Assembly (NCBI GenBank): GCA_903921455.1
Contig: CAIXPZ010000174.1
Coordinates: forward strand, 1-5,443
From: an uncultured Verrucomicrobia subdivision 3 bacterium
GTDB lineage: Bacteria; Verrucomicrobiota; Verrucomicrobiae; Limisphaerales; UBA11358
DNA: 5,443 nt
Reading direction: 5' to 3'
A program made the translations under genes and the position numbers. The stretch's first letter is position 1. Each line of letters opens with the position of its first letter. The notes beneath the pieces were generated by a model. The model was not told the DNA's origin and did not search any database. It saw only the letters and a list, made by a program, of their open reading frames with translations. Below are positions 2,841-5,443 of this stretch, one piece after another.

Positions 2841-3613
2841 TATTGCACCACGCGGATGGTCCAGAAATCGCTGGCCAGATCCGCGCCGGTGACATACGCG
2901 TAAGGCAGTGTGAAATAGCCCTTCAAACCCCAGCCCGCGCCCCACGAATTTCGCACGATGAACCACTGTTTCGCGTCATCGTAGCCCACGCCCACCACCG
3001 CATGGCCGCCCACCACTGATTCGCTGGACTTGGGCAACGGCGCGTGGCCGCTCTTCGCCACGGCTGCGCTCTCAAAACTTTCATACACGGTGAAACCGAA
3101 AACGAACGGCCAGCCCGACGCCAGACAGCCTTTCAACTGGCCCAGCGTCTGCGTGACGCGCTGATAGGAAACCACCTTGTATTTCAACGCATCTTCATAG
3201 CACGCCGCCGCCGGTTTGGTTTTGAATTTGGCGATGGTGTAAGGCCATTCCGTTTCCGGACAATCGCCCTGCTGGCCCACGCTTTTGACGCCATCGCGGA
3301 TTTGCGCGCCGCTGTCCGACGCCACCGAATGCTCCATGACCCGTTCGTTGTAATAAATAAACAGCCGCGACGGCACGAAGTCCGCGAGCTTTTGTTTCAA
3401 CCGATCGAACTGGATGGCCCCGGCGATGGCGTTGGCCGTGCAACTGCCGAGCTGCCCCTGATCATACACCGGCGGACATTGCAAACGCAGGTCAACCTTC
3501 GCCGGCAGCGGCCCTAGCGCCAGCGACGGAGCCGCGTAGGAATAATCCCGTTTATCCGGCAAATCCTTTTGCCAGCCGTAACCACGGTTTGGAAAGCGCC
3601 TTGGAATTTTCAT
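2840..3613 (-). CDS. Papain-like cysteine peptidase (family C1)
   Basis: A 257-residue protein with the full papain catalytic set: oxyanion Gln52 and nucleophile Cys58 in DQGQLGSCTANA, His204 in GGHAVVGVGYDD, and Asn222 in VRNSWGAGWG. The N-terminal GYGWQKDLPDKRDYSY (11-26), then PAKVDLR, is typical of bacterial C1A peptidases. The mature catalytic domain starts around residue 35, so there is no room for the long inhibitory prodomain of eukaryotic papains. I see no signal peptide or membrane segment, which suggests a cytoplasmic enzyme or one exported by an unusual route. The substrate is unknown. ATG 3613 is the first sensible start, and its ribosome-binding site is weak. It lies 96 bp downstream of the GspC-like gene. 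Its TAA shares a base with an ATG of the HU-like gene (TAATG), so the two are probably in one transcript. Confidence 0.92.
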   Translation of the reverse strand: MKIPRRFPNRGYGWQKDLPDKRDYSYAAPSLALGPLPAKVDLRLQCPPVYDQGQLGSCTANAIAGAIQFDRLKQKLADFVPSRLFIYYNERVMEHSVASDSGAQIRDGVKSVGQQGDCPETEWPYTIAKFKTKPAAACYEDALKYKVVSYQRVTQTLGQLKGCLASGWPFVFGFTVYESFESAAVAKSGHAPLPKSSESVVGGHAVVGVGYDDAKQWFIVRNSWGAGWGLKGYFTLPYAYVTGADLASDFWTIRVVQ

Positions 3614-3709: not shown

Positions 3710-4537
3710 CTATTGTCCCGGCATGGGTGCGCCCGGCGCGGGCGGCCCGCCGGCTCCATTGCCTTCACCTTTAAGCTCGGCCGTGAGCGGCGTGGGCGGA
3801 ATGATCGCAGCCGCCGGATTACCTTCATCCAACCATTTGGCCCGCTGGGCTTCCATGCTGATGATTTTTTCCTCGTAAGACAATTCCCCCAAGCCATTGT
3901 TGTTGGCTGGGGCGGCAGTGCTGCTCCCCAAACCCGGTGCGCCAGTCGGACTCGAATTGTTGGCACCGGGATTATTCCGGTTGCGACCAAAGCGGCCACC
4001 GGTTCCGATCGTCATGGGGGCGCCAGCGGTTGGAGCTATCGTGGGTGCCGGGAATCCCGCAGGCGGGGTAAAGCCCGACGGGCCGGGAACCGGCCCCGGC
4101 GGCGGCCCGGCGGCGGCAGGCGCGCTGGCCACCAAAGGCAGTTGTTGAACCTCTCCGTGATTGTTGAAGGTGATGGTGGCCCCCGCCTCATCAATCTTTA
4201 CCACTTCAATCTCGTCCTCGCGGTCGCCCTCGCCCATCACATGCGAATCTTCCTTGGGCGGCTGGCCGGGGCGATTGTTGGCCACCTTGAAAATCACCTG
4301 CAACTGACCGGCCATCCGCATAATGCCATTGGGCGAAATCTTGGGCTTCGGAATGAGCGTCTGCGGATCCACCGGCGGCGCGGGCGGCGGGATGGGCACC
4401 AAACCGAAAACATTGCGATCCACGATGAACTTGTAAGGAGTTGCCGTTTCTCCCGGCGCGACGCCCGCCAGCAGCGGCTGGCCGGAAAGCCAGCCCGCCG
4501 TCAGCACACCGAGGATGCAGCACCGTCGCATATTCAT
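3710..4537 (-). CDS. Secreted proline-rich protein, weak GspC/PilP-like resemblance
   Basis: A 275-residue exported protein of no family I can name with certainty. Residues 1-25 (RR, then a hydrophobic core, then LLAGVA) form a Sec signal peptide with likely cleavage near 24-27. The segment YKFIVDRNVFGLVPIPPP (35-52) recalls the RNLFG-type start of the periplasmic part of GspC. The stretch 72-135 (MAGQLQVIFKVAN, then EIEVVKIDEAGATITFNNHGEVQQLPL) resembles the small beta domain of GspC/PilP that carries a residue-by-residue 'V I' pattern. Residues 138-215 are rich in Pro, Gly, Ala and Asn and are probably disordered. A short charged segment (SYEEKIISMEAQRAKWLDEGNPAAA, 220-244) and a PG-rich tail follow. 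ATG 4537 was chosen because the signal peptide begins there. The longer open frame upstream runs into REP sequence. No secretion-system partners are in the window, so the link to type II secretion or pili is only inferred. Confidence 0.75.
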   Translation of the reverse strand: MNMRRCCILGVLTAGWLSGQPLLAGVAPGETATPYKFIVDRNVFGLVPIPPPAPPVDPQTLIPKPKISPNGIMRMAGQLQVIFKVANNRPGQPPKEDSHVMGEGDREDEIEVVKIDEAGATITFNNHGEVQQLPLVASAPAAAGPPPGPVPGPSGFTPPAGFPAPTIAPTAGAPMTIGTGGRFGRNRNNPGANNSSPTGAPGLGSSTAAPANNNGLGELSYEEKIISMEAQRAKWLDEGNPAAAIIPPTPLTAELKGEGNGAGGPPAPGAPMPGQ

Positions 4538-4605: not shown

Positions 4606-4748
4606 GGTAGGGACGGTGCGCTGCGCCGTCCCCGCCCGTCAGCGTAGCGAGGGCGGAACGAACGTGGTGAGTCACACGTCTTGTAATCCGTTTCCGTCGC
4701 CTGACGCTGCGCTCGGCGATGGGGACGGCGCAGCGCACCGTCCCTACC
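4606..4748. mobile_element. 143-bp REP pair (BIME/MITE-like foldback element)
   Basis: The ends, 4606-4633 and 4721-4748, are perfect 28-bp inverted repeats, each starting from outside with GGTAGGGAC. Each arm is itself a hairpin: GGACGG pairs with CCGTCC, then TGC with GCG, around a GCT loop. Inside each arm follows a second hairpin with a 13-nt loop: CCGCCC/GGGCGG (4632-4656), and CCGTCGCC/GGCGATGG (4694-4722) with one wobble. The centre (about 4657-4687) is unique. The GTAG head followed by a hairpin is the standard form of REPs used by RAYT transposases. The right end overlaps the last codons of the adjacent RAYT gene. The element starts about 70 bp upstream of the GspC-like gene. It has no coding capacity, so any movement would depend on the RAYT. 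Confidence 0.85.
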
Positions 4749-5217
4749 CGTTAAATGGCGGGCGCTGGCCGGCGGCAAAATAAACGAATGACCAATCTTC
4801 CGGGCGCGTGATGAGTTTTTTTCGCACCGGATTTTCCAAAATATAATCGGCCTTCTGCCGCCGGCTTTCGTCATGTCGCAGACGGTGTTCAAAGAAATCC
4901 CGCTGCCAGCCGATGCCGATTTCTTTCGCCGTCCATTCCTTCCACTGGCTGACGACGGTTTGTAGCGGCGTGCCGGACGGCGGAAAGGAAATTAGTGCGT
5001 GCAGATGATCCGGCATCAGCAGAAAAACGTGCGGCCACCACAAGAACTTTTCCTGCCGGTGCCGGACGGTTTCAAACAGGCGGACGGCAATTTCTGGCAG
5101 GGCAAGCTGGTTGTGACCGCGTTCCCGGCAGTTGATGGTGATGAAATAAATCTCCCGGTGCGGGTCAACCCTCAAGGGCACGTCATGCGGCAGGGATTTT
5201 CTTCGGGGCCTGTCCAT
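4744..5217 (-). CDS. REP-associated tyrosine transposase (RAYT, HUH/Y1 superfamily)
   Basis: A 157-residue single-domain transposase related to IS200/IS605 TnpA. The family nicks and joins single-stranded DNA at REP hairpins through a transient phosphotyrosine bond. Visible motifs are the opening strand EIYFITINCRERG (22-34), the metal-binding HUH triad in MPDHLHALI (His71, His73), and the nucleophile Tyr125 in ADYILENPVRKKL. The NPV-R-L after the tyrosine is typical of RAYTs. The tail DWSFVYF is also family-like. All catalytic residues are present, so it may be active. ATG 5217 was chosen because the conserved domain begins soon after it and GGGG lies just upstream; the open frame further upstream reads through REP sequence. 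The stop TAG (4744-4746) is part of the GTAG head of a REP. REP elements flank the gene on both sides in inverted orientation, which strongly suggests they are its substrates. Confidence 0.92.
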   Translation of the reverse strand: MDRPRRKSLPHDVPLRVDPHREIYFITINCRERGHNQLALPEIAVRLFETVRHRQEKFLWWPHVFLLMPDHLHALISFPPSGTPLQTVVSQWKEWTAKEIGIGWQRDFFEHRLRHDESRRQKADYILENPVRKKLITRPEDWSFVYFAAGQRPPFNG

Positions 5218-5229
5218 GCCCCAAAAGTA

Positions 5230-5254
5230 TTTGCCAATGCGGTTGGGTGGCAAA
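5230..5254. promoter_or_regulatory. Inverted repeat in the RAYT leader
   Basis: TTTGCCA (5230-5236) and TGGCAAA (5248-5254) are exact inverted 7-mers with an 11-nt spacer, starting 13 bp upstream of the RAYT ATG. They could form an operator or an mRNA hairpin near the ribosome-binding region. This would suit the low expression usual for transposases, but the role is inferred from position only. Confidence 0.3.
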
Positions 5255-5262
5255 CCAAAAAT

Positions 5263-5323
5263 GGTAGGGACCGACCGCTGGGCGGTCCGCGTCGCCGAGC
5301 GCAGCGTCAGGCGACGGAAACGG
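5263..5323 (+). repeat. REP module, variant 3 hairpin plus second hairpin
   Basis: This starts with GGTAG and carries a hairpin (GGACCG/CGGTCC, then ACC/GGG around GCT, 5268-5288). A second hairpin follows, CGTCGCC (5290-5296) and GGCGACG (5310-5316), with a 13-nt loop. Positions 5292-5323 match the reverse complement of 4688-4719 over 32 of 32 bases, at the same distance (29 nt) from the GGTAG head. It points away from the RAYT gene, mirroring the module on the other side. Confidence 0.85.
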
Positions 5324-5351
5324 GCGGGGTTGGACTGGCGCCTCGCGGGAA

Positions 5352-5412
5352 GCTGTCCGGCGGAAGACGGGGAAGCGCCGGACAGCGGACAGCGCAGCGC
5401 ACTGTCCCTACC
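5352..5412 (-). repeat. REP module, variant 2 hairpin plus long second hairpin
   Basis: Read on the minus strand from 5412, it begins GGTAG, then a hairpin with GGACAG/CTGTCC stem and GCT loop (5387-5407). An 11-bp perfect stem follows directly: GCTGTCCGGCG pairs with CGCCGGACAGC (5376-5386 and 5352-5362) around a 13-nt loop. Together with the plus-strand module at 5263 it forms a convergent REP pair of 150 bp, similar in size to the 143-bp pair on the other side of the RAYT gene. Confidence 0.8.
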
Positions 5413-5417
5413 ATACT

Positions 5418-5443
5418 GGACAGCGCAGCGCACTGTCCCTACC
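5418..5443 (-). repeat. Solo REP copy, tandem to the preceding one
   Basis: These 26 bases are identical to 5387-5412, in the same orientation and at a 31-bp interval with ATACT between. No second hairpin follows this copy on its inner side, because the next REP starts after 5 nt. The window ends exactly at the end of this repeat, which may be a contig break. Confidence 0.85.

Follow-up and report, generated by a model that had tools for sequence, protein, structure and literature searches.

Background

The REPs reported here most closely resemble the GTAG REPs surveyed by Di Nocera et al. (PMC3733652, 2013), a paper drawn on in part, as are the others cited below. In that survey GTAG REPs have a GTAG head, stems mostly of 6-9 bp and a short loop; most families have sub-families with alternative complementary stem residues, and G.T pairs are common. 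REP dimers are homodimers or heterodimers, the preference for heterodimers "has no obvious explanation", and it was suggested that heterodimers are protected from SbcCD or from long-hairpin processing (PMC3733652). The present elements share with them the head, the stem length, the short loop, the inverted dimers, the complementary stem changes and the dimers with different stems. The Verrucomicrobia example given there is O. terrae, and no re-pairing test was found in the parts of the survey drawn on.

The GTAG head, the GCT loop and the conserved loop G are also shared with the group 3 REP/TnpA-REP system of Stenotrophomonas maltophilia, in which the stem is perfect and its integrity outweighs its sequence (PMC8266576). 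Stem swaps in a GCT-loop REP had no drastic effect on cleavage, a mid-stem mismatch affected or almost eliminated it, and the loop G was critical (PMC8266576). Unlike that system, the one described here has a Verrucomicrobiota RAYT (REP-associated tyrosine transposase), shows T.G or A.G pairs in subfamilies and is known from sequence alone. In Escherichia coli, Y and Z REPs are joined in inverted pairs (PMC6006769), and the arrangement of its BIMEs, two REP types in opposite orientation and one RAYT, recurs here. The Y and Z REPs are unlike in both stem and loop and contain a bulge that is required (PMC6006769, PMC8266576), whereas in the present elements the two ends have the head, the stem length and, in most cases, the loop in common, their main difference being in stem pairs. 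As in Pseudomonas fluorescens, the unit is an inverted doublet (REPIN) with two alternative folds, a long hairpin and a cloverleaf, and there compensatory changes have been described in the spacer hairpin (PMC3116915). In contrast to the SBW25 REPINs, which have a conserved 16-mer at each end (PMC3116915), the ends here usually differ in stem. RAYTs flanked by two slightly different REPs have been reported (PMC2817692, PMC3686654).

Compensated change in REP stems is therefore known in kind, alternative complementary stems and heterodimers having been published in 2013 (PMC3733652), and the locus described below is a well-supported further instance. Beyond that survey, as far as the parts drawn on go, the present analysis adds a re-pairing test against a within-genome null, an orientation contrast and a strand asymmetry of wobble pairs, none of which was met in the literature examined. 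One literature search on RAYTs in Verrucomicrobia and another on homodimer or heterodimer REPs, with subscription journals mostly outside their range, gave no further relevant paper among the matches listed, and nothing on stem covariation was found in the accessible parts of RepRanger (PMC12306157). REP stems offer an accessible case of structural covariation at the level of DNA as opposed to RNA.

The locus and its RAYT

The window, that is the whole stretch of DNA analysed, is 5443 bases long, and its last base is the end of a REP. Pfam matches identify genes for a CDP-alcohol phosphatidyltransferase, a histidyl-tRNA synthetase, an HU/IHF-like protein and a papain-type protease; one further protein had no match in the Pfam search. 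The histidyl-tRNA synthetase and its counterpart in genome G001 (uncultured Verrucomicrobia subdivision 3, VK4_bin-0324, the genome of locus L001) share 93% identity, and the window carries the REP elements of a RAYT system from a bacterium close to Verrucomicrobia subdivision 3. The G001 region syntenic at the histidyl-tRNA synthetase end has REPINs and no RAYT match, and was left out of the analysis.

The RAYT gene lies on the minus strand at 4744..5217 and encodes 157 aa from ATG. Its product scores 91.9 bits against NF047646 (cut-off 80) and 19 bits against the general Pfam Y1_Tnp, under the cut-off of 23. In the alignment with TnpA-REP (PDB 4er8) its PDHLHAL HUH motif (HxH) is matched, and its Y125 falls on Y115 of the 4er8 chain, which we take to be the catalytic tyrosine. 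The curated family match, the HUH motif with a single tyrosine and the flanking REPs place it in the RAYT family. The REPs at 4723-4748 and 5263-5288 bracket the gene, with 514 nt between them. The stop codon TAG is also the TAG of the GGTAG head in the downstream REP (4744-4748), thus the end of the gene overlaps the REP. The same sharing was seen in 11 of 19 loci picked for checking (besides the window L001, L007, L008, L011, L013, L016, L021, L023, L025 and L048).

Five REPs in two REPINs

Five GGTAG-headed REPs of 26 nt had been reported from the sequence, and all are present as exact matches to GGTAGGGACNNNNNGCTNNNNNGTCC, a pattern with zero matches in 200 dinucleotide-preserving shuffles of the window. 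The first, at 4606..4631 on the plus strand, has the stem GGACGGTGC/GCGCCGTCC and the loop GCT, with G-C at pair 5 and T.G at pair 7; its sequence recurs inverted at 4723..4748 on the minus strand, where it supplies the RAYT stop. The plus-strand copy at 5263..5288 has the stem GGACCGACC/GGGCGGTCC, with C-G at pair 5, an A.G mismatch at pair 7 and C-G at pair 8. The minus-strand copy at 5387..5412 has the stem GGACAGTGC/GCGCTGTCC, with A-T at pair 5 and T.G at pair 7, and an identical copy at 5418..5443 forms a direct repeat 31 nt away at the window end. In each the head stands directly 5' of an imperfect palindrome, as in the GTAG superfamily, whose heads are GTAG or GTGG, and each folds as DNA with z of -2.8 to -3.6 against shuffles.

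The GGTAG head and GCT loop are unchanged across all five copies, and there are three stem variants as the sequence-only reading had it, pair 5 being G-C, A-T or C-G and pair 8 G-C or C-G. That reading took these changes as direct evidence that the fold is kept. It was right that pairs 5 and 8 are compensated but omitted pair 7, which changes without Watson-Crick pairing and is never Watson-Crick in the window (T.G in four copies, A.G in the 5263 copy). Because five copies in three variants hold only two double changes, the window by itself is suggestive of a kept fold, and the proof lies with the copies in relatives.

The REPs form two inverted pairs with outward heads, standing on either side of the RAYT, followed by the direct copy at 5418-5443. 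REPIN 1 (4606..4748, 143 nt) has inner palindromes and the same stem at both ends; REPIN 2 (5263..5412, 150 nt) has two different stems and is a heterodimer, which REPIN 1 is not. Inverted doublets with outward heads and a hairpin fold, the features of a REPIN, were found in 122 further cases in related genomes, and most of those examined are heterodimers; identical ends, as in REPIN 1, are uncommon. Inverted 61-nt arms at 4688-4748 and 5263-5323 (span 4688..5323), each made of a REP and a second palindrome, lie on both sides of the RAYT gene and are 89% complementary. The inner palindromes of the window are at about 4632-4656 and 5289-5320. Across REPINs they vary, e.g. GTCGCC...GGCGAC, CGCCC...GGGCG and, in G007, GCGCCGGGTTGCGGCGC, and are usually unlike on the two sides.

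Stem covariation in relatives

Relatives of the window organism were searched with a pattern that specified the head, the loop and four bases of the 5' stem arm and left the 3' arm open, copies being counted irrespective of gene overlap. In ten related genomes it gave 95 matches, in nine of the ten, against one for the reversed control. A looser pattern in five genomes gave 149 against 12 and included another repeat family. A draw of 293 genomes from the order to which G005 belongs contained 83 with a match; this number includes chance matches, some of the 83 being positive for the reversed control as well; a family-level draw from G004 gave only two genomes. Surroundings were fetched for all places listed in the ten-genome search, for 10/20 places in G109, 28/48 in G112 (22 stretches) and 11/31 in G130 (10 stretches), and, from the 293-genome listing, for 9/9 places in G028, 6/7 in G205, 5/7 in G080 and 2/4 in G057. 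Stretches were hand-chosen roughly in list order, skipping other repeat families and decayed-looking places, and are therefore not a random sample.

From the fetched stretches, those of G028, G205, G080 and G057 apart, and from the window, 218 copies were selected by their head, their loop and the last part of the 5' arm, whatever their 3' arm; one with just two paired positions was dropped. Pairs 3-8 are all standard in 190 of the remaining 217 copies, which are related to each other and so are not independent events. In 2000 shuffles of 3' arms within genomes the number of such copies averaged 83.8 and never exceeded 108, and with distinct sequences per genome the count is 80/104 against 33.4 by shuffle. 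All nine pairs are Watson-Crick in 106/217. Among the 217 copies pair 3 occurs as A-T, T-A or C-G, pair 5 G-C, A-T or C-G, pair 6 G-C, T-A or C-G, and pair 8 G-C or C-G. The earlier proposal that the folded form is maintained is thus upheld by 190/217 against 83.8. Uncompensated copies, named by the sequence-only reading as what would speak against it, do occur but as a minority, 27/217 having a non-standard pair in 3-8.

Pair 4 is T.G in 55/217 copies, which marks a large subfamily; pair 7 is T.G or A.G in 21/217, seven of the copies having A.G (found in G001, G002, G005 and the window). A required mismatch at pair 7, like the E. coli bulge, is excluded by C-G there in 192/217. The loop starts with G in 309/311 copies of a set preselected to have loops at most one change away from GCT.

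Chimeric REPs, which join a 5' arm and a 3' arm from different variants, were seen at G004:C150:13938 (GGACGG/ATGTCC) and G001:C177:10895 (GGACAT/CTGTCC) and are possible intermediates or recombinants. They lend some support to compensation arising without selection, through template switching or hairpin-templated repair that copies one arm onto the other at quasi-palindromes. Such copying would erase the T.G at pair 4 and the T.G or A.G at pair 7 that are found in 55 and 21 copies, respectively, and would equalise inverted ends, yet those ends tend to differ (below); we consider it quite improbable.

A second GGTAG family coexists in the order (G003, G007 and G017), with an 8-bp stem and a TGCT loop, e.g. 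GGCGGCGTTGCTGCGCCGCC.

A single close RAYT beside several stem types

Matches to the RAYT were sought in twelve genomes, all of them drafts, and a second close copy could therefore be missing from any of them. G001 to G009 have one close match each at 71-87% identity (in two segments in G008), other matches being at most 44% identical. In G004 and G007, for instance, AT, AG, GG and GC stems are found together. Of the two possibilities raised from the window, that one RAYT tolerates several stem variants is the better fit to a single close RAYT beside many stems in G004 and G007, and several REP subfamilies do coexist. In G109 and G130 the close RAYT copy is split over two frames (G109:C55 and G130:C196), which may be real or an assembly error; both genomes are rich in AT-type REPs. 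In G112, which has many REPs, the RAYT search gave no match above 38%.

Wobble pairs and the GTAG strand

When only one member of a pair undergoes a transition, the GTAG strand carries either G.T or A.C, and the opposite strand carries the other of the two. Among uncompensated transition pairs at pairs 3-7, read on the GTAG strand, there are 79 G.T against 8 A.C, or 45 against 8 by distinct sequence per genome. Leaving out pair 4, the counts are 20 against 6 by distinct sequence per genome and 16 against 6 by distinct sequence overall, which is borderline (P 0.053), and pairs 3, 5 and 6 alone give a non-significant 8 against 4 by distinct sequence per genome (P 0.39). The G.T excess, whose weight is at pairs 4 and 7, speaks for selection on the strand that carries GTAG and is bound by TnpA-REP (PMC8266576). 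Repair of a duplex predicts no such excess of G.T over A.C.

Tolerated G.T pairs would also suit stems kept at the RNA level, with transcribed REPs acting as RNA hairpins, as was proposed from G.T pairs by Di Nocera et al. (PMC3733652). One transcript carries the GTAG strand of just one end, yet T.G pairs on that strand occur at left and right ends, and an Rfam search of the window gave nothing at gathering level; selection on RNA appears highly improbable here.

The two ends of a REPIN tend to differ

The stretches behind the 217 copies yielded 113 inverted pairs, of which 109 were analysed; three were removed as longer alternatives overlapping other pairs (L116:202, a same-type pair, among them), and L092:351, a real REPIN of different pair-5/6 type, was removed in error. 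Anchors without a partner numbered 40, and in L118, L144 and L148 a decayed partner with a different stem was visible by eye, missed by the rule and left uncounted. The two ends have the same pair-5/6 type in 11 of the 109 REPINs, against 32.4 expected under free re-pairing within genomes and 24.4 when sides are kept so far as the inner A palindrome defines them; under either null 0 of 5000 shuffles were as low as 11. Stems are fully identical in 4/109 against 14.1 or 10.6 expected; with the 86 distinct end combinations, 3 are fully identical against 6.2, which is non-significant (484 of 5000). Fifteen more REPINs from G028, G205, G080 and G057 (6 further anchors without partner) bring the set to 124, and a common run of at least 16 nt is found in 9/124 against 27.2 (0 of 5000). 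Decay alone as the source of the difference is excluded, since 77/124 REPINs have both heads intact and nine standard pairs; these 77 include 12 same-type cases against 25.9 expected. Assembly loss of equal-ended REPINs could be a cause of the deficit; equal-ended inverted pairs are assembled elsewhere (L157, L178, L053, L056, L057), and the long contig of L042 (1 Mb) shows stem alternation.

The two ends could also be separate lineages inherited as a unit, with no selection for difference. Keeping the sides does reduce the expected number from 32.4 to 24.4; in G007 and G112 one stem type prevails on the side bearing the A palindrome and a different one on the opposite side, all 8 G130 REPINs are AT/GG, and the arrays of G299, the genome of L042, resemble one founder copied. 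By contrast, G004 and G005 combine AT, AG, GC and GG variously, G004 with 0/17 same-type REPINs where the null gives 3.5. The avoidance also persists with sides controlled: among the 72 REPINs with an A palindrome on exactly one side, 9 are same-type against 15.5 (27 of 20000), and with identical combinations collapsed 8/64 against 14.05 (56 of 20000). After this control the avoidance itself is moderate, and inheritance of ready-made pairs seems to us rather doubtful as the whole account. That one end is always of GC type was suggested by the first G004 pairs and refuted by more pairs.

Orientation of neighbouring REPs

Among neighbouring REPs at most 700 nt apart (L001-L025, L089-L277 and the window), the type is the same in 16/152 inverted pairs with heads outward, 2/23 inverted pairs with heads inward and 12/20 direct pairs. 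L015 alone contributes 8 of these 20, including six same-type pairs; without it 6/12 are same. A further comparison covered 58 RAYT loci and the window, 54 of them with at least one REP. Same-strand REPs across the RAYT gene are identical in 27/45 comparisons, opposite-strand REPs in 5/50 within a side and 8/51 across the gene. Counted by locus, an identical same-strand pair is found in 20/33 and an identical opposite-strand pair in 11/46 (Fisher P 0.0012; L034 and L036 show the same REPs and may be non-independent). Where both kinds are present (31 loci), the same-strand pair is closer in 21, farther in 7 and tied in 3. Loci with identical opposite-strand pairs include L004, L007, L016, L027, L035, L038 and L044 and the Opitutales-labelled L053, L056 and L057; differing ends are thus not required everywhere, given REPIN 1 and these 11/46 loci. 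Within each single array of G299 strand goes with stem type, read from the 5' arm by a pattern that leaves pairs 3 and 6 open, in all 46/46 copies listed on contig C2. Same-strand identity may be plain direct duplication of a REPIN.

Linkage of stem type to strand, at many RAYT loci and in G299, raises the question of whether stem types mark left and right ends that differ in function and that the RAYT handles in different ways, like IS200/IS605 ends; the combination of Y and Z REPs in E. coli inverted pairs (PMC6006769, PMC8266576) would be a parallel. In G004, AT, AG and GC stems each occur on both REPIN sides, and the two ends share the head and mostly the loop, which argues against this; we regard it as unlikely. 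The tendency of opposite-facing copies to have unlike stems sharpens the open question on REP pairs, and the orientation contrast makes the unexplained preference for heterodimers directly testable.

Folding energies and a proposed mechanism

A REP can fold alone or pair with its partner into a long hairpin, since REPs mostly occur as inverted pairs. For REPIN 1 the long hairpin is favoured over local hairpins by 21.6 kcal/mol, for REPIN 2 by only 4.1 kcal/mol, rising to about 21 kcal/mol when its ends are made identical in silico. Over the 93 REPINs with at least three end differences the long inter-REP hairpin beats two local ones by a mean of 5.7 kcal/mol, and by 19.3 or 19.8 kcal/mol when they are equalised in silico; in 16 REPINs with near-identical ends it is favoured by 14.7 kcal/mol. 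Unequal ends raise the energy of the long fold, therefore long and local folds come closer, the long hairpin still being lower in 85/93 of the different-ended REPINs in what is an equilibrium comparison.

The best explanation, which we consider probable as a whole, is that the RAYT reads a fold, that stems covary and that unequal ends favour separate hairpins. The RAYT would recognise, on single-stranded DNA, the GTAG head, an unbroken self-folded stem and G as the first loop base. Stem sequence would go unread, and stems could then drift mainly by changes of both partners, in many cases with G.T on the GTAG strand as the intermediate step. The stems do covary; the RAYT is the presumed selecting agent, and cleavage of these REPs is predicted by analogy with the published GCT-loop REP. 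Stems that differ from each other but pair internally would weaken the long hairpin and so favour separate, RAYT-usable hairpins, and unequal ends may also spare the element the instability of a long hairpin. The ends differ beyond chance, and self-folding on the GTAG strand, as against pairing with the partner, is the likely reason. A more specific form, an orthogonality code in which opposite-strand REPs are kept different in order to self-fold and same-strand REPs may stay identical, is quite possible, falling a little short of an even chance. If true, covariation would both keep the RAYT fold and block pairing between a REP and an inverted REP, and the published preference for heterodimers would be accounted for.

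A further inverted repeat of the window, AGCCACAGATTTACACAGATGAAACACAGAT, lies at 2343-2373 and 2469-2499 (31 nt, 94% complementary). Similar copies are found in the G001 stretch L278 near 3078-3116 and 3978-4027, and this is possibly a second interspersed repeat family.
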